From the NCBI GenBank assembly GCA_002167745.1, contig NHCB01000015.1, positions 1,389-41,595 on the forward strand: DNA of 40,207 nucleotides. Direction: 5' to 3'. Shown piece by piece: positions 16,763 through 40,090 of this stretch; the first letter of the stretch is position 1; every line of letters begins with the position of its first letter. The stretch is from Betaproteobacteria bacterium TMED22. Lineage in GTDB: Bacteria; Pseudomonadota; Gammaproteobacteria; Burkholderiales; Eutrophovitaceae. Below the pieces are notes generated by a model. The model was not told where the DNA came from. It made no database searches and saw only the letters and a program-made list of their open reading frames with translations. The translations under genes and the position numbers were made by a program.

Positions 16763-17791
16763 TTACAACTCGCCCACTTTTTTTTGTTCGTTTAACAAAT
16801 CAAGCGCTACATCAACGATCATATCTTCTTGACCACCAACCATTCGTCTTCGACCAAGCTCGACCAATATGTCGATAGTCTTTAATCCATATTGTTTAGC
16901 AGCTTTCTCGGCATGTAACAAAAAACTTGAGTACACCCCCGCATAGCCCAAAGCTAAAGTCTCTCGATCAACCCGCACGGGACGATCTTGCAAGGGTCGA
17001 ACAATATCCTCTGCAGCGTCGATTAACTTGTATAAATCACAACCGTGATTCCATCCAAGACGATCCGCGGCAGCGACGAAGACTTCTAATGGCGCATTGC
17101 CCGCCCCAGCACCCATGCCAGCCAAGCTCGCATCGACACGATCACATCCCTCCTCCACCGCCACGATAGAATTAGCAACTCCCAGGCTGAGATTATGATG
17201 CGCGTGCATTCCCGTTTGAGTCTCAGGTTTTAGAATATCCTTAATTGCTTTAAAGCGATCGCGAACATCATTCATGTTTAGCGCTCCGCCCGAATCCACG
17301 ACATAAACACAAAGTGCCCCATAACTTTCCATTAGTTTTGCTTGTTTCGCGAGGCCAGAGGGACTATTCATATGACTCATCATCAAAAAACCCACAGGCT
17401 CCATACCAATATCTCTTGCATACTCAAGATGTTGCTTTGAAATGTCAGCCTCCGTGCAATGGGTCGCTACACGAACAACGCGAGCGCCGGCATTAAAAGC
17501 AGCCTTTAGATCGTGCACTGTTCCAATCCCTGGTATCAGTAACGTAGCGACCTTAGCAACAGACAATTCTTCTGCAACGGCAGCAATCCACTCGATATCT
17601 GTATGTCGGCCAAAACCGTAATTAAACGATGAGCCTTGCAATCCATCTCCGTGTGCGACCTCAATCGAATCAACATTCGCCTCATCTAAGGCCCTCGCGA
17701 TACTTTTAACATGATCGATTCCGTATTGGTGTCGAATCGCATGTGACCCGTCACGTAACGTAACGTCTGAAATATATATTTTTTTATTCAT
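16763..17791 (-). CDS. dmpG: 4-hydroxy-2-oxovalerate aldolase
   Basis: This class II pyruvate aldolase splits 4-hydroxy-2-oxovalerate into pyruvate and acetaldehyde in the lower meta-cleavage pathway. The 342 residues match the family. Arg13, Asp14 and His17 ([11 protein letters not shown]) form the active-site start, and His196 and His198 (MHAHHN) fit the metal ligands. [12 protein letters not shown] is also characteristic. It follows the acetaldehyde dehydrogenase gene by 16 bp; the two proteins normally form a complex that channels acetaldehyde. No ring-cleavage gene is present, so the source of the hydroxy-oxo acid is open. Confidence 0.94.
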
Positions 17792-17807
17792 ATATCGACT
17801 CCATTAC

Positions 17808-18764
17808 TCAGACGACAACCGAGGATGCTTGATCTAAAGCTCTCTCGGCAAGCTTTTCACCTGTAGCGAGCGCCGCGGACGTCATAATATCCAAATTTCC
17901 CGCGTACGACGGTAAATAGTGAGCGGCACCCTCGACTTGAAGAAAAACCGTAGTTTTAATTCCACTTAATTCACCAACGCCAGAAATTCGACAAGGTCTA
18001 TCGGGACCGAACTCCTCAAATTGAACTCGCTGCTTCAGACGATAGCCCGGAACATAAGCTTGGACATTAGCAACCATTGCCTCAATCGCTTGTTCTATTT
18101 CTACCGTATCAGCCTTTGCAGACAAAACATACACCGTATCTCTCATCAACATTGGTGGCTCTGCTGGGTTCAATATAATTATCGCCTTACCCTTTTTGGC
18201 TCCTCCAATAACCTCGATTCCCTTCGAAGTCGTTTCTGTAAATTCATCAATATTAGCTCGCGTGCCGGGTCCGGCTGAACGACTAGAAATGGAGGCGATT
18301 ATTTCCCCATAATGTACCTCAGTCACACTTGACACTGCTGCCACAATGGGAATGGTTGCTTGACCACCACAGGTCACCATATTCACATTACGAGCATCAA
18401 GGTGTTGCTCCAGATTTACAACGGGTACGCAATAAGGGCCAATTGCCGCAGGCGTTAAATCAACCACCTTCACATCAGGCTTGATCGAGCGAATCACTCG
18501 GTCATTTTCTATATGAGCGCCCGCTGAGGTTGCGTCAAAAACCACCTCAATATCGGACATGATTGGGTCTTTGCTCAGTCCGATAACCCCTTCAGCTGTA
18601 GCTACAACTCCGTTTTTTTTAGCCCGCTCCAAACCGTCAGATTGTGCGTCAATACCGACTAAAGCACCCATCTCAAGAAACTGCCCCTGCCTCATGATCT
18701 TCATCATTAAGTCTGTGCCGATATTTCCCGAACCAATAATTGCGGCCTTGACCTTTTTCGTCAT
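17808..18764 (-). CDS. dmpF: Acetaldehyde dehydrogenase (acylating)
   Basis: This NAD-dependent enzyme converts acetaldehyde and CoA to acetyl-CoA. The 318 residues show the N-terminal nucleotide-binding motif [10 protein letters not shown] (11-20) and the catalytic Cys132 in [12 protein letters not shown], the same number as in characterised DmpF. It is first gene of the dmpF-dmpG pair and would receive acetaldehyde directly from the aldolase. Its upstream region, shared with the divergent SDR operon, holds a consensus -10 element and a dyad (18863-18896). Confidence 0.94.
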
Positions 18765-23042: not shown

Positions 23043-24857
23043 ATGGAACTCAAAATGTCACTCGGACGTTTCGGGGTAGCATTAGCTGGCTTAACGCTAG
23101 CTGTTTCAGCAATTGCTGGAACCGTTACTACCGATCGTCTCGTTAACAGTGAAAAAGAGCCTGGAAACTGGCTGAACCACCATGGAAACTTGGAGGCTCA
23201 CCGTTATTCAGGACTTGCTCACATCAACAAAGATAATGTTCAAGATCTTAAAGTCGCATTTACTTTTGCGATGGGTGGAACACAAGGCGGCGGAAAAGAA
23301 GTTATTGCTTTTCCATTTGCGGGCTTGGAGGGCACACCAATTGCTGAGGACGGATTCTTATACCTCACCACCGGCTGGGGTGTTGTAACTAAGCTTGATA
23401 CAAACGGCGGAAGCCCTCGTATCGTGTGGATTTATGACCCAGCTCCAGATAGAGACTACGCTACCACTGTTGCATGCTGCGGTATTAACAACCGAGGTGT
23501 TGCTCTTGCGGATGACTATGTCATTGCTCCGGTTATTGATGGTCGAATCCTAGCGCTTAACAAAATTGACGGCACCCTTGTTTGGGAAGCTCAAGTAGCT
23601 GATCCAGGGAACGGTGAGACCATCACAGGCGCACCACTAATTGCTGGTGATAAAGTTGTTACCGGTATGGCCGGCGCTGAATTTGGTGTTCGTGGCTACC
23701 TAGAAGCTATGGATATCAAGACTGGTGAGCAAGTATGGAGAACTTATACCATTCCTGCACCAGGTGAGCCAGGCTCAGAAACTTGGAAAGATGATTACGG
23801 CGCTTGGAAAACAGGTGGCGGTACAACTTGGGTTACAGGTTCATGGGATCCAGAACTAAACATCATTGTTTGGGGTACAGCAAATCCAGGTCCTGACTGG
23901 GATTCAGCATATCGTCCAGGCGATAACCTTTGGACAGACAGTACTATTGCTGTGGATGCGGACAGTGGAGAAATTGTTTGGGGTTTCCAGCACACACCAA
24001 ACGATCCTTATGATTTCGACTCTATCAACGAAAACACTTTTGTTGACACGAACATCGAAGGTAAATTCGAGCGCGCTACTTTGCACGCAAACAGAAATGG
24101 CTATGCGTATGCACTTGACCGCGTAACAGGTAAATGTTTGTGGGCAACTCAATTCGTTGAGGAGATAAACTGGAGTGGTGGTCTTGATGAAAACTGCAGA
24201 CCTAACACTTATGATCCCAACAAAGACGTTCAAACGTACGTTCCTGGAACTGCTGCTATGCGTGGTACAGCTACTGAAGGCCGTGGAACCATCGAAGGTA
24301 CTTTGAAACCTGGACATATGGGTGGAAAAAACTGGCCGCCAACAGCGTACAGCCCTCAAACTAACTACTACTACATTCCAACAATTGATGGATGTAATAA
24401 GGCGTTTACTGAGGTAACTATTCCTGGACAACATAAGCCACGGCAGTTGTTCCTCGGAGGGGCACCTTACTCAACATATGAAGATCCAGATTGCGGACGT
24501 ATTTGGGGAAGCATCACTGCGATTGACGTACAAACCGGTAAAGTCGTAGCGAAGCATTCAACAAAGTATCCTCAGTTAGGCGGGCTACTAACCACCGCTG
24601 GTGGACTAGTATTCTCCGGTTATGCTGAAGGTGCAGTAGTTGCGCACGATGCGGTAACCTTAGAAGAGCTATGGAGATTCGAGACCGGATCCGCAATTAA
24701 TGCGCCGCCAATGACCTACATGGCTGGTGGTAAGCAGTACATTGCGATTGAGGTTGGACTAGGTGGTGCTTGGCCTCAGTGGTTCGTTAGCGCTACACCT
24801 GAACTTAAAGCTCAGGTCCCTAGTAATGTCCTTTATGTCTTCGAGCTACCAAATTAA
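23043..24857 (+). CDS. PQQ-dependent methanol/ethanol-type dehydrogenase, lanthanide signature
   Basis: A periplasmic quinoprotein that oxidises an alcohol and passes electrons to cytochrome c. The 604 residues begin with a signal peptide (about 1-25) and form an eight-bladed propeller with repeated W motifs such as GTLVWEA and GEIVWGF. The vicinal disulfide is Cys145-Cys146; Glu213 and Asn281 fit the metal ligands, and Asp324 the catalytic base. In PYDFDS a second aspartate, Asp326, stands two residues after Asp324. This extra ligand marks lanthanide-dependent XoxF/ExaF/PedH enzymes, whereas calcium enzymes of the MxaF type have Ala there. The natural substrate (methanol or larger alcohol) cannot be decided. 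A strong ribosome-binding site and terminator suggest abundant expression. Confidence 0.92.
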   Translation: MELKMSLGRFGVALAGLTLAVSAIAGTVTTDRLVNSEKEPGNWLNHHGNLEAHRYSGLAHINKDNVQDLKVAFTFAMGGTQGGGKEVIAFPFAGLEGTPIAEDGFLYLTTGWGVVTKLDTNGGSPRIVWIYDPAPDRDYATTVACCGINNRGVALADDYVIAPVIDGRILALNKIDGTLVWEAQVADPGNGETITGAPLIAGDKVVTGMAGAEFGVRGYLEAMDIKTGEQVWRTYTIPAPGEPGSETWKDDYGAWKTGGGTTWVTGSWDPELNIIVWGTANPGPDWDSAYRPGDNLWTDSTIAVDADSGEIVWGFQHTPNDPYDFDSINENTFVDTNIEGKFERATLHANRNGYAYALDRVTGKCLWATQFVEEINWSGGLDENCRPNTYDPNKDVQTYVPGTAAMRGTATEGRGTIEGTLKPGHMGGKNWPPTAYSPQTNYYYIPTIDGCNKAFTEVTIPGQHKPRQLFLGGAPYSTYEDPDCGRIWGSITAIDVQTGKVVAKHSTKYPQLGGLLTTAGGLVFSGYAEGAVVAHDAVTLEELWRFETGSAINAPPMTYMAGGKQYIAIEVGLGGAWPQWFVSATPELKAQVPSNVLYVFELPN

Positions 24858-24897: not shown

Positions 24898-24931
24898 AAC
24901 TTACGGGACCTTCACGGTCCCGTAAGTTTTT
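24898..24931 (+). terminator. Terminator after the PQQ dehydrogenase gene
   Basis: AACTTACGGGACC (24898-24910) and GGTCCCGTAAGTT (24916-24928) form a perfect 13-bp stem with loop TTCAC, followed by a T-run to 24931. It separates the quinoprotein gene from the cytochrome gene. Confidence 0.9.
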
Positions 24932-24984: not shown

Positions 24985-25425
24985 ATGATGATGAAAATAT
25001 TGCTTAAGCGAACGATAACAGGGCTAATTGGTTCTTTTATTGCGTTCAGTTTAGTGCTCACACTAGACATAACCACCGACGTTACAAAAACCGCTCAGGC
25101 CGAACGACCTAAGATCAAGAAAAGAGGGCCTGGAGGACGACAACTATTTGACCGCTACTGTATTACCTGCCACAAATATATGGGGCAAGGAGGACATAGC
25201 GAGGGCGGATGGGGTAAAAATTTAAGGAAGACACCGTTGCCGCGTGAAATGTTAATGGCCACAATCAAGTACGGGCGCACCGCGTTAGGAATGCCTGCGT
25301 TTGAGGGGGACTTCAGCGACGAGAACTTATACGTAATGACAGACTTCATCTTGAATGAACTGAGATGTAAAGAGCCACTCGAGGATAGCATCGAATGGAA
25401 AATCGGTTGCCAAGAGCACCAGTAA
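24985..25425 (+). CDS. Mono-haem cytochrome c, probable electron acceptor of the quinoprotein
   Basis: The 146-residue protein has an N-terminal signal or anchor (hydrophobic about 12-27), then a class I cytochrome c core with one haem motif CITCH at about 59-63 and a probable axial methionine in GMPAF. Two further cysteines occur in the C-terminal tail. It lies 127 bp after the PQQ dehydrogenase stop, behind a strong terminator, in the place where xoxG-type cytochromes are usually found. It therefore most likely accepts electrons from that enzyme in the periplasm. Expression must come from read-through or from its own unidentified promoter. Confidence 0.88.
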   Translation: MMMKILLKRTITGLIGSFIAFSLVLTLDITTDVTKTAQAERPKIKKRGPGGRQLFDRYCITCHKYMGQGGHSEGGWGKNLRKTPLPREMLMATIKYGRTALGMPAFEGDFSDENLYVMTDFILNELRCKEPLEDSIEWKIGCQEHQ

Positions 25426-25455: not shown

Positions 25456-25487
25456 AAAAAAGGCAGCTCGAAGAGCTGCCTTTTTTT
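25456..25487. terminator. Bidirectional terminator
   Basis: GGCAGCTC (25462-25469) and GAGCTGCC (25473-25480) pair perfectly with loop GAA, and A6/T7 flank them. It serves the cytochrome gene on the plus strand and the facing small-protein gene on the minus strand. Confidence 0.9.
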
Positions 25488-25501: not shown

Positions 25502-25945
25502 TTACTGGGTATGACCCGGCGCCAAACGATTAATGAGCACCGGCAGATAATCCAGGTCACGCTGATCTCGATCCTCTTTTAACCAAGCTAAGGCCTGGTC
25601 TCGATCAATATGATTTCCCCAACTAAGTTGAAGATGAATCATCTTAAGTAAACGTCCACCATTCCTTTCATCCATACCCACGAGCTCGCGGCCCATCATT
25701 AAGGCCTGGGTAAAATCAGCAAGGCCTTGCTCTTTAACTTGCGCATAAGCTAGGTCATAGGAATCACGAGCAACGACATATATAGCAAGCACATCACCCT
25801 GAGCTGCCCGACACTCCATCCATAGTTCATCTTTAGGGCATTCGGAGATTTCCTCTGCGAGCGCTATACCACCAAAAACGGTACTAGAACAAAATGCTGC
25901 CGAAGCTAAAAAAGATGACACTTTTAAAAAACTAATATCTCTCAT
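25502..25945 (-). CDS. Exported protein of unknown function
   Basis: The 147 residues begin with a signal peptide (hydrophobic about 9-30, probable cleavage after ALA). The mature part is helical, with two cysteines near its start (ECPKDELWMECRAAQGD) that could form a disulfide. I recognise no domain. The gene follows the NTF2-like gene by nine bases on the same strand, so both form a two-gene unit facing the quinoprotein/cytochrome genes. A periplasmic accessory role is possible but unproven. Confidence 0.7.
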   Translation of the reverse strand: MRDISFLKVSSFLASAAFCSSTVFGGIALAEEISECPKDELWMECRAAQGDVLAIYVVARDSYDLAYAQVKEQGLADFTQALMMGRELVGMDERNGGRLLKMIHLQLSWGNHIDRDQALAWLKEDRDQRDLDYLPVLINRLAPGHTQ

Positions 25946-25954
25946 TATTTATCC

Positions 25955-26461
25955 TCAATTTACTCCCGGCGCATCCTTAAAATATTTCGCAACCGACGCC
26001 GTATCAAAATAGAAATCTAAATTCTTGACCTTGCCACTCATCCCAAGTTCAAAAATAGCCACTCCGTTAATCTTAATCTTATCACCCGAGGATTTGTGAG
26101 TCGCAGACCACTCGTACTCCATAGCTCCGATAAGGTCTTGAACGGTGACTCGCTTGGTTGTCCACTTCGCCTTGAAAGTTTCAAACTCCCACTTATAGTA
26201 AGCCTCTATGGCTGAAGCACCTTCAATTAAAGAACCCGGCATAGAGCGACGTGATTTCGACTCAAAATATTGGTTCCACTTGTCAGCATTTCCATTACGC
26301 ATGCCCATGTTATAGGCCTGAGGAGCCAACTTCATTAAACTTGCCGCTTGCATTGCAACGGAACCTGCAGCATCTGCGGTTCGCAAAGATAAGATATTAA
26401 ACAACCCGACCAAGCACAAGCCAATAGCTAGGGATTTTAAGGAGAAAAATCTATAAGACAT
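25955..26461 (-). CDS. Exported NTF2/SnoaL-like protein
   Basis: The 168-residue protein has a signal peptide (about 1-31, ending near TADA). Its mature sequence fits the NTF2-like cone fold: a helical start with NADKWNQYF, GASAIEAYYKWEFETFKAKW, then strands with EYEWSATHK and INGVAIFELGMSGKVKNLDFYFD. Such domains bind small molecules or act as isomerases and hydrolases; no catalytic residue can be assigned here. It is first of the two-gene minus-strand unit. A second NTF2-like domain occurs in the window, fused to a dienelactone hydrolase at 35717-36949. Confidence 0.7.
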   Translation of the reverse strand: MSYRFFSLKSLAIGLCLVGLFNILSLRTADAAGSVAMQAASLMKLAPQAYNMGMRNGNADKWNQYFESKSRRSMPGSLIEGASAIEAYYKWEFETFKAKWTTKRVTVQDLIGAMEYEWSATHKSSGDKIKINGVAIFELGMSGKVKNLDFYFDTASVAKYFKDAPGVN

Positions 26462-31889: not shown

Positions 31890-32984
31890 CTACTGCCATA
31901 CAGAATCTAGACTGCCCACCGATTTCGGATAAGCAACGATGCCCCACGGCATCGCAAAACCGCTTAACCTTTTAATCACTGAGAGGTCTGACGCATCTAA
32001 GATAACGACCTCGTCAGATCTACCACACGCCACTAAGATTTTTGAGTCATCAGGCGTAAAGGTAAAATGCCAACAACGCTTGCCAGTTTCTCCACGACCC
32101 AATTCTTCCCAAGTCGTCGTATCAAAAACCTGTAACACCTTCCCTTTCGCTAGCGCAACATATAGTTTGCTGCCATCCCGACTAAAAGATAGCCCGTATG
32201 GCACCTCTCCAGTTTTAATGGAATTAACGACCTCAAATTCGCTATCCATAACAACTAAACTGTTGCCGTACTCAATACTGCCAACGTACATACTGCCGTC
32301 CGGAGACGCTTTGATCCCTCTGGGCCTATGACCGTACTCTATTGTGCTGATCTCTTTTATCATTTCACCGGTGTCTAAATCATGAACAGTGATGTTCTCA
32401 TCGGCCTCATTGGTAATAATCAGCTTGGTTTTGTCATAAGAAAGCTCAATACCCTCGGTCTCCATACCTCCAGTAATCTCTTTTTCCACCATACCGGATT
32501 CAATGTTGACGACTGCTATTTTAGCTGGCTCAGCATCATCTTCCTCTCGCTCCTCTTCTAGCTTCTGAGCTGCTTCAGATCCTGGAGTAGGTGGAGGACC
32601 GCCAAGAGAAGCCGGCTCAAATGAGATATACGCTCGGTTTCCAATCACACGCACAAACTCGGGATTCTCCCCAATCTCAATATGCTTAGTGATTTCACCG
32701 CTTTCTCGATCAATCAGCGTAATGTCGCCCCCATCCACGTTGGCAACAACAATTGTTTTGCCATCAGGCGTGATACCAATACCACGAGGCCCTTTACCCT
32801 CCACATCGATTTCAGAAATAGGCTCTAAACTAGCCAAATCAATAACTGTAATATTGCCCTTCTGGTTGGTAACGTAAGCGACGCCCGCATCTGTCGCGCT
32901 GGTCGAAGATTCATTGGAACATCCCGCAACCAAGAAGACCGTCGCCACCGTTAAGAAAATTGAAGCTCTAAAACCTTTTGACAC
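31890..32984 (-). CDS. YVTN-type beta-propeller lipoprotein
   Basis: The 364-residue protein has a lipoprotein signal with LVAGC, so Cys22 would be lipidated. About seven YVTN-like blades follow, each with the pattern GKTIVVANVDGGDITLID or SKLYVALAKGKVLQVFD. A Pro/Glu-rich insertion (about residues 124-155, including EEEREEDDAEP) interrupts one blade. Similar propellers accompany PQQ alcohol dehydrogenases in catabolic operons (the 'PQQ-dependent catabolism-associated beta-propeller' family), which fits the quinoprotein 7 kb away. Binding partner and function are unknown. A terminator follows directly. Confidence 0.85.
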   Translation of the reverse strand: MSKGFRASIFLTVATVFLVAGCSNESSTSATDAGVAYVTNQKGNITVIDLASLEPISEIDVEGKGPRGIGITPDGKTIVVANVDGGDITLIDRESGEITKHIEIGENPEFVRVIGNRAYISFEPASLGGPPPTPGSEAAQKLEEEREEDDAEPAKIAVVNIESGMVEKEITGGMETEGIELSYDKTKLIITNEADENITVHDLDTGEMIKEISTIEYGHRPRGIKASPDGSMYVGSIEYGNSLVVMDSEFEVVNSIKTGEVPYGLSFSRDGSKLYVALAKGKVLQVFDTTTWEELGRGETGKRCWHFTFTPDDSKILVACGRSDEVVILDASDLSVIKRLSGFAMPWGIVAYPKSVGSLDSVWQ

Positions 32985-39295: not shown

Positions 39296-40090
39296 CTATT
39301 CAACCCCAAGAGTTACCGAACCCAAGGAATCAATCTCAACCTCTGCCATATCTCCCGCCTCCAGCCATTTTGTCTCAACAACACTGCCTAGCATGACAAA
39401 TTGATCCTTCTTTAAAGATAAACCTCGACTAACTCTAGACTTAATAAACCAATCAAGCGCCTTTAGAGGCGACCCCATTATCAAAGAACCTTTTCCCGTC
39501 CCTAAAACAACACCATTGACACGGGTAGTGCCCAACAGGTTATTTAAATCTAACTTTTGCCAATCACAAACCGCCTCACCCAACACACACCCACTATCAA
39601 AAAAATTATCAGCAATTAAGGTAGGAACCCCTAATGATGCGTAATCCTTATAGCGGTCATCCACAATTTCCATTCCGACCATCATAGAGTCAATCACATT
39701 TAGAGATGAACATGCTGCTTCAGAATAAGTATCCGGTGTAATCGTTTTAGAAATTGAGACCACAATTTCACACTCAATCCCAATTTTCCTAAAACCCTGG
39801 CGAGGCACACGCCCGTGAGCTTTCAATACTGTGCGAGCAAAGATCTCACCAGCGCAAGGTGTCGGTATACCTAAAAATCGCTGCATCACGGATGTCGTAC
39901 AACCAATTTTATGTCCAACAACCGGCCCTAACGATCCCTCTAAGATTCGATTCACACGCTCCTGCAAACGGTAACCTGCGCTCTCATTAGTAGGCTCTAA
40001 ATCAGAAGGCAGCGCGCCAATTAAAGTAAGATTTTTTCGCTGCTCCGATAAAATTTCAGCGGCATTCATTTTTCTAAAAGACTCTTTCAT
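39296..40090 (-). CDS. 2-keto-4-pentenoate hydratase / FAH-like protein
   Basis: The 264 residues fit the 2-keto-4-pentenoate hydratase family (MhpD, DmpE): VGHKIGCTTSVMQRFLGIPTPCAGEIFA is the family core, with IGIECEIVV for the metal-binding glutamates and GSPLKALDWF near the end. Such enzymes add water to 2-hydroxypenta-2,4-dienoate to give 4-hydroxy-2-oxovalerate, the substrate of the aldolase encoded at 16763-17791; related decarboxylases look alike. It is separated from the aldolase/dehydrogenase genes by more than 20 kb, which is unusual. Confidence 0.87.
   Translation of the reverse strand: MKESFRKMNAAEILSEQRKNLTLIGALPSDLEPTNESAGYRLQERVNRILEGSLGPVVGHKIGCTTSVMQRFLGIPTPCAGEIFARTVLKAHGRVPRQGFRKIGIECEIVVSISKTITPDTYSEAACSSLNVIDSMMVGMEIVDDRYKDYASLGVPTLIADNFFDSGCVLGEAVCDWQKLDLNNLLGTTRVNGVVLGTGKGSLIMGSPLKALDWFIKSRVSRGLSLKKDQFVMLGSVVETKWLEAGDMAEVEIDSLGSVTLGVE

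Follow-up and report, generated by a model that had tools for sequence, protein, structure and literature searches.

A distinct clade of probable lanthanide-type PQQ-dependent alcohol dehydrogenases with a constant small partner protein

The gene at positions 23043–24857 (+ strand; ATG start, ORF of 604 aa) of the window, i.e., the whole 40,207-nucleotide stretch of DNA that was analyzed, encodes what is most probably a periplasmic lanthanide-type PQQ-dependent alcohol dehydrogenase of a clade of its own, which would form one unit with its neighbors. The real lead that the analysis adds is that this distinct clade comes with a constant partner, a protein denoted o147.

With respect to family and fold, the gene product is a periplasmic PQQ-dependent alcohol dehydrogenase. 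It scores 527.1 bits against TIGR03075 (PQQ-dependent dehydrogenase, methanol/ethanol family), above the cut-off of 480.05, and the match is near full length, pairing residues 26–575 with positions 4–530 of the 530 in the model. A hydrophobic, signal-like segment, judged by eye, is present at the N terminus. A sequence search of the PDB returned PedH (6zcw/6zcv) as the best match, with an E value of about 1e-92, and XoxF chains next. Comparison of the predicted model with PDB folds gave Z 47.7 for 1yiq and Z 47.6 for PedH (6zcw; rmsd 2.0, 536 aligned residues), and the first 17 rows, comprising PedH, XoxF and other PQQ-dependent alcohol dehydrogenases, fall within Z 45.0–47.7 over 522–543 residues. 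The mean pLDDT of the model is 81.2, and the loops of the metal site are of moderate confidence (77, 55 and 80 for blocks 211–220, 281–290 and 321–330, respectively). The vicinal pair Cys145-Cys146 as well as Glu213, Asn281 and Asp324 are aligned identically in all seven reference chains of solved structure, and Arg351, listed together with these active-site parts, is taken by us to have an active-site role.

The motif NDPYDFDS sets aspartates at positions 324 and 326, and the codons for Asp324-Phe325-Asp326, which make up the D-x-D motif, occupy 24012–24020 on the + strand (residue n starts at 23043 + 3(n − 1)). Glu213, Asn281, Asp324 and Asp326 are presumably the metal ligands, as family knowledge has it. 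When the dehydrogenase was aligned by MAFFT with the seven reference chains (copied from alignments), the position of Asp324 was D in 7/7, and those of Glu213 and Asn281 were E and N in 7/7. The position of Asp326 is D in PedH (6zcv) and in three XoxF chains (6dam, 4mae and 6oc5), and S, T and A in ExaA (1flg), a type II alcohol dehydrogenase (1kv9) and MxaF (4tqo), respectively; the lanthanide and calcium labels of the seven chains follow PDB names, PMC5487730 and the usual assignment of these enzymes. The alignment confirms the original prediction that Asp326 is situated two residues past the catalytic Asp324: rather than lying off the metal site, it coincides with the extra aspartate of PedH and the three XoxF chains, and falls at the lanthanide-ligand position. 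This extra aspartate is treated as a metal ligand in excerpts of PMC5487730 and PMC11996626. Asp324 and Asp326 are furthermore invariant in 49/49 aligned proteins (the window protein, 38 orthologues, and 10 homologues at 34–41% identity), and D-x-D is kept in 61/61 rows of at least 65% identity, 5/5 rows of 50–65% and 18/18 rows below 50%, counts in which some rows represent one gene fetched twice. Since D-x-D is kept across the aligned rows, Asp326 is a conserved metal-site position and not a chance match.

With an aspartate at the ligand position, the lanthanide use that was predicted originally is upheld as likely, and the enzyme is likely to be of the lanthanide type; it is not proven, since D-x-D alone is no proof, the characterized metal-promiscuous membrane glucose dehydrogenase (m-GDH) having the same motif. 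By family knowledge and the alignment, PQQ with a bound lanthanide would oxidize an alcohol or aldehyde in the periplasm, and the earlier suggestion that the substrate may not be methanol is kept as a possibility. The competing explanation is that the enzyme is promiscuous for metals or uses calcium, its D-x-D being incidental as in m-GDH, for which excerpts of PMC11996626 name Ca, Mg, Zn and Sr. The same excerpts put seawater Ca near 1e-2 M and lanthanides near 1e-11 M, which speaks for a calcium enzyme, and from the partial text of PMC10409515 the Ca-dependent PedE retains 60–80% activity in 10 mM lanthanides. Since m-GDH has D-x-D and PedE tolerates lanthanides, metal choice is not strictly readable from sequence. 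However, within the soluble methanol/ethanol family the three calcium enzymes carry S, T and A at this position and the four lanthanide enzymes carry D, and PedH, with Asp at the place equivalent to Asp326, is described as lanthanide-dependent in the part of PMC5487730 that was available; a promiscuous or calcium-using enzyme is rather unlikely in our judgment. PQQ dehydrogenases of the lanthanide type are common in marine settings and, like the window enzyme, have D-x-D, which the excerpts of PMC11996626 assign to 61% of 6,328 marine PQQ dehydrogenases sorted into 17 families. The D-x-D motif was read correctly and is unremarkable if taken alone, being common as well as suggestive.

A kinship with XoxF or PedH was not borne out by phylogenetic analysis. 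In a maximum-likelihood tree of 35 proteins, including 17 of the 38 orthologues and three XoxF references, the window protein and the 17 orthologues constitute their own clade (100/100) on a long stem (1.06), and the window protein is absent from both the XoxF/MxaF clade (100/100) and the group that unites PedH/ExaA with two further genes, L068 and L069 (100/100). The tree thereby excludes membership in PedH/ExaA and in MxaF, and, as far as can be judged by phylogeny, the dehydrogenase forms a distinct clade that is neither XoxF nor PedH. The deep order of the dehydrogenase groups is weak (50/39), with some long branches meeting, and the window dehydrogenase is about equally identical to all seven references (35–39%). 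Membership in XoxF is rejected in view of the position outside the XoxF/MxaF clade together with the lack of a MoxJ-like neighbor, MoxJ models having returned 0 matches among the ten proteins encoded between 16.8 and 26.5 kb of the window. An ordinary XoxF-type methanol dehydrogenase, which D-x-D, the vicinal cysteines and 36–39% identity to three XoxF chains would fit, is very improbable indeed, given the full support for the separate placement, the about equal nearness of PedH, ExaA and MxaF (36–37%), and the occurrence of a MoxJ_2-like protein beside a paralogue, L002, instead.

Compared with PedH from Pseudomonas putida KT2440 (6zcv/6zcw), the window enzyme has all four metal ligands, the vicinal cysteines and the fold in common, but shares only 36% identity and belongs to a separate clade; the PedH-like genes L068 and L069 belong to genomes in which o147 has no match. 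XoxF has a dedicated c-type cytochrome, XoxG, comparable to the c-type cytochrome beside the window dehydrogenase, and XoxF chains (6dam, 4mae and 6oc5) have D-x-D and the Glu and Asn ligands as well; the window locus differs in having o147 and SnoaL-like proteins in place of a MoxJ-like neighbor. ExaA, the type II enzyme and MxaF agree with the window enzyme in fold, PQQ site and catalytic Asp, but have Ser, Thr or Ala where it has Asp326. The named relatives with a clade dehydrogenase are mostly metagenome-assembled and are titled Burkholderiales, Betaproteobacteria, Alphaproteobacteria or Entotheonella. Among the 44 named loci, which include fragments (set A2 leaves out L008, L009 and L044–L047; set A1 leaves out L008, L020, L033 and L034), 43 are 70–99% identical to the window dehydrogenase, and the fragment L047 is 62% identical.

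Downstream of the dehydrogenase gene lies a gene for a single-heme c-type cytochrome of 146 aa (CITCH; 24985–25425, + strand; PF13442, 47.8 bits versus 27), followed on the − strand by the conserved partner o147, a secreted-looking, Sel1-like helical protein of 147 aa (25502–25945), and by a SnoaL-like, secreted-looking protein of 168 aa (25955–26461; PF12680, 32.4 bits versus 27). The SnoaL-like gene precedes o147 in the same orientation with a gap of 9 bases, and the two likely form an operon. The cassette of dehydrogenase, cytochrome c and o147 is a conserved feature of loci in Burkholderiales, Alphaproteobacteria and Entotheonella. By profile search, a cytochrome c is found downstream of the dehydrogenase in 40/40 loci that reach that far, and o147 in 39/39 named loci with sequence there; these totals derive from 43 loci with a dehydrogenase match, of which L009, L045 and L046 do not reach the cytochrome and L004 breaks off after it. 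The cytochrome of L030, with a frame that starts above the limit of the script, was counted by hand, and L008 and L046, both from one genome, could represent opposite ends of a single gene. The SnoaL-like protein is present in 28/39 loci; the 11 without it are six from Alphaproteobacteria, two from Entotheonella, L021, L031 and L040, the last on a contig that ends soon after o147, where the gene may be cut off. The o147 gene is on the opposite strand in 38/39 loci, with the exception of L031, where it has the same direction as the cytochrome gene and starts about 10 bases after it. When neighboring frames of 110 aa or longer were clustered, with families counted if present in five or more non-genus loci, no other family proved as constant as the cytochrome and o147, the next most constant being frames that overlap the dehydrogenase and a cluster of SDR proteins in 17 loci at varied distances.

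The adjacent cytochrome is the likely electron acceptor of the dehydrogenase, and its constant linkage suggests that electrons would pass singly to it and then to a terminal oxidase. Sister-group dehydrogenases at 54–56% identity, from six small alphaproteobacterial genomes, have no o147 match; in the four sister-group loci read, the SnoaL-like protein was not found, another secreted-looking protein comes after the dehydrogenase, and the cytochrome is present in three, the fourth contig coming to an end. Since the sister group keeps the cytochrome without o147, the cytochrome has the wider conservation of the two partners, and o147 is the clade's own. A secreted-looking protein of about 206–214 aa is encoded between the dehydrogenase and the cytochrome of the sister group (L117:7365–7985, L118:6210–6854 and L116:6011–6637), and may replace o147 there; its L117 copy has no Pfam match. 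A consensus scan also gave weak evidence of two elements in the window, both inverted repeats, one of 13 pairs in the gap between dehydrogenase and cytochrome (24898–24928), a possible RNA hairpin that could set the expression ratio of the two, and one of 14 pairs with A/T runs on both sides (25456–25486), which might terminate both the cytochrome gene and the o147 gene that converges with it. The promoter and terminator scan was no richer than shuffled sequence, giving 4 terminator-like sites versus 4.2 expected.

The distribution of the two genes over whole genomes is in agreement with their linkage. In a first set of 61 genomes (the genome of the window and 60 relatives; dehydrogenase counted at 78% identity or more), the dehydrogenase occurs in 13 and o147 in 13, both being present in 12, the dehydrogenase alone in 1, o147 alone in 1 and neither in 47. 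In 11 of these 12 genomes the two genes share a contig and are no more than 3 kb apart; in the remaining one, G007, they are split between contigs, and the dehydrogenase lies close to the end of its contig. The genome with the dehydrogenase alone, G016, has a contig that ends at this gene, and the one with o147 and no match to the clade dehydrogenase, G010, has a contig that begins inside the SnoaL-like gene. Among 80 alphaproteobacterial genomes, 7 have both genes, none has the clade dehydrogenase (71% or more) alone, none has o147 alone, and 73 have neither. Fisher tests, which ignore kinship, give 1e-10 and 3e-10 for the 61 and 80 genomes, respectively. These sets overlap the named loci, 11/12 and 6/7 genomes being the same records by contig and position, and most of the overlapping genomes also gave rows to the o147 profile; linkage and co-occurrence are therefore largely one body of evidence, to which the genome sets contribute the absence in other genomes, the occurrence in single copy and the matches in G007, G010 and G437. 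Throughout the wider class, an o147 match is present in 4/369 genomes, the window's own included, and the other three, at 27–32 bits, are taken as generic Sel1 proteins. A role of o147 as a general accessory of PQQ-dependent alcohol dehydrogenases is disfavored, as G011 has one o147 match despite 17 matches to the dehydrogenase (a count that takes fragments of a gene separately), and G009 and G038, with 13 and 20 matches, have none.

A segment shared by transfer could have kept o147 and the SnoaL-like protein as hitch-hikers with unrelated functions, an explanation that suits the patchy presence of the clade dehydrogenase (13/61 genomes), the opposite strand of o147 in nearly all loci, and the ability of sister-group dehydrogenases to manage without o147. 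Nevertheless, the 39/39 linkage extends over three bacterial groups, with dehydrogenase identity down to 70% and o147 orthologues outside the genus sharing 22–49% with the window member, the co-occurrence is near one-to-one, and in L031 o147 has been re-oriented yet not lost. Hitch-hiking appears unlikely in view of this.

Seven residues of o147 are invariant in 36/36 rows, i.e., Cys36, Cys45, Gly96, Gly110, His112, Ala118 and Trp121. The predicted model is all-helical, with block pLDDT values of 96–99 for residues 41 to 140. With E values of 1 or below (best 2.4e-5), 8/36 members match the Sel1 repeat model PF08238, the o147 of the window itself has no match to any Pfam or NCBIfam model and none over a curated cut-off, and the family profile has a distant match to the Sel1-like protein 8sxq (E 5e-7); the assignment of o147 as Sel1-like is a weak one. 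Like Sel1-like repeat proteins (8sxq and others), o147 is all-helical by its model and is reached by distant profile match; unlike these, it is a short single unit with an invariant Cys36-Cys45 pair and His112. Searches with the o147 fold retrieved weak hits or generic helical proteins (best E 0.1 by Foldseek, best Z 8.6 by VIA), and hence no function follows from the fold. On linkage and co-occurrence, o147 might help to assemble, load or dock the dehydrogenase or the cytochrome, with the SnoaL-like protein perhaps joining it in this helper role in many species. We tentatively suggest, as a possibility rather than a probability, that o147, in many species together with the SnoaL-like protein, acts in the periplasm as a factor dedicated to one lanthanide-type clade, whose enzymes it would mature or load with metal or PQQ, and that it is unrelated to XoxJ/MxaJ.

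To our knowledge, metal and cofactor loading and cytochrome coupling are known for few lanthanide-type PQQ dehydrogenases, and the present clade brings a constant, small and testable partner set. Were o147 a loading or assembly factor, it would offer a simple genetic handle on lanthanide-enzyme maturation and represent a novel type of accessory factor of lanthanide enzymes. Among the literature matches listed, subscription journals and supplements aside, there is no report of linkage of o147 (Sel1-like) or SnoaL-like proteins to a PQQ or lanthanide dehydrogenase, and no Sel1-like partner of a PQQ dehydrogenase is seen in the excerpted survey text of PMC11996626.

The region upstream of the dehydrogenase, from 16.8 to 22.6 kb, codes for DmpG, DmpF, SDR, Zn-ADH, Ldh2 and RraA. 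DmpG and DmpF (4-hydroxy-2-oxovalerate aldolase and acylating acetaldehyde dehydrogenase; window 16763–18764), both far over cut-off, are a pair known from meta-cleavage pathways. The dehydrogenase might belong to this block and oxidize an intermediate of its pathway, as the arrangement in the window, L004, L005 and L046 invites one to think: there the block precedes the dehydrogenase, with SDR to RraA on the same strand. However, in the window RraA and the dehydrogenase are some 400 bases apart, the upstream genes turned up with the dehydrogenase only in same-genus contigs (L004–L007, and L046 up to its end), and in L006 and L007 about 5 kb intervene, a gap that in L007, the one contig in which it was read, holds an MMPL-family transporter, a LolA-like protein and a DUF1302 protein (L007:4907–9698). 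The block was not found beside the dehydrogenase in non-genus loci with upstream sequence, where several contigs are short on this side and generic SDR and Zn-ADH matches reach 28–36% only. Since they are found beside the dehydrogenase only within the genus, the upstream genes say little about the substrate, and what the original prediction had called a catabolic setting looks like a local neighborhood. A pathway enzyme of this block is decidedly unlikely, and the block was dropped as a functional partner because it is not conserved. Elsewhere in the window, a FAH-family protein is encoded at 39296–40090, and a β-propeller at 31890–32984 resembles TIGR03866 (PQQ-dependent catabolism-associated), with 144.7 bits, below the cut-off of 287.3.

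The genome of the window (1.88 Mb, 95% complete) has three PQQ dehydrogenase matches, all with D-x-D, from which it may be surmised that the organism depends on lanthanides for periplasmic alcohol oxidation. PqqC and PqqE score over their cut-offs and are close together at G000:C4, and frames between and before them resemble PqqD and PqqB by eye. With regard to lanthanide uptake, two TonB plug domains were counted in the genome. One paralogue (L003:1459–3222, on G000:C8) has D-x-D in the motif HDAWDFDS and is followed by a cytochrome c; it joins the clade stem weakly (87/77) on a long branch (2.19), and has FY instead of the canonical vicinal CC, Lys for Arg351 and Tyr for Trp377, with a CC elsewhere (GELAGCCGP). 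The second paralogue (L002:1447–3228 / L112:6857–8326, on G000:C3) has the motif NDPYDYDG and is followed by a MoxJ_2-like binding protein (54.4 bits, below the cut-off of 212.15) and a cytochrome c; the partner set recalling XoxF adjoins this paralogue and not the window dehydrogenase.
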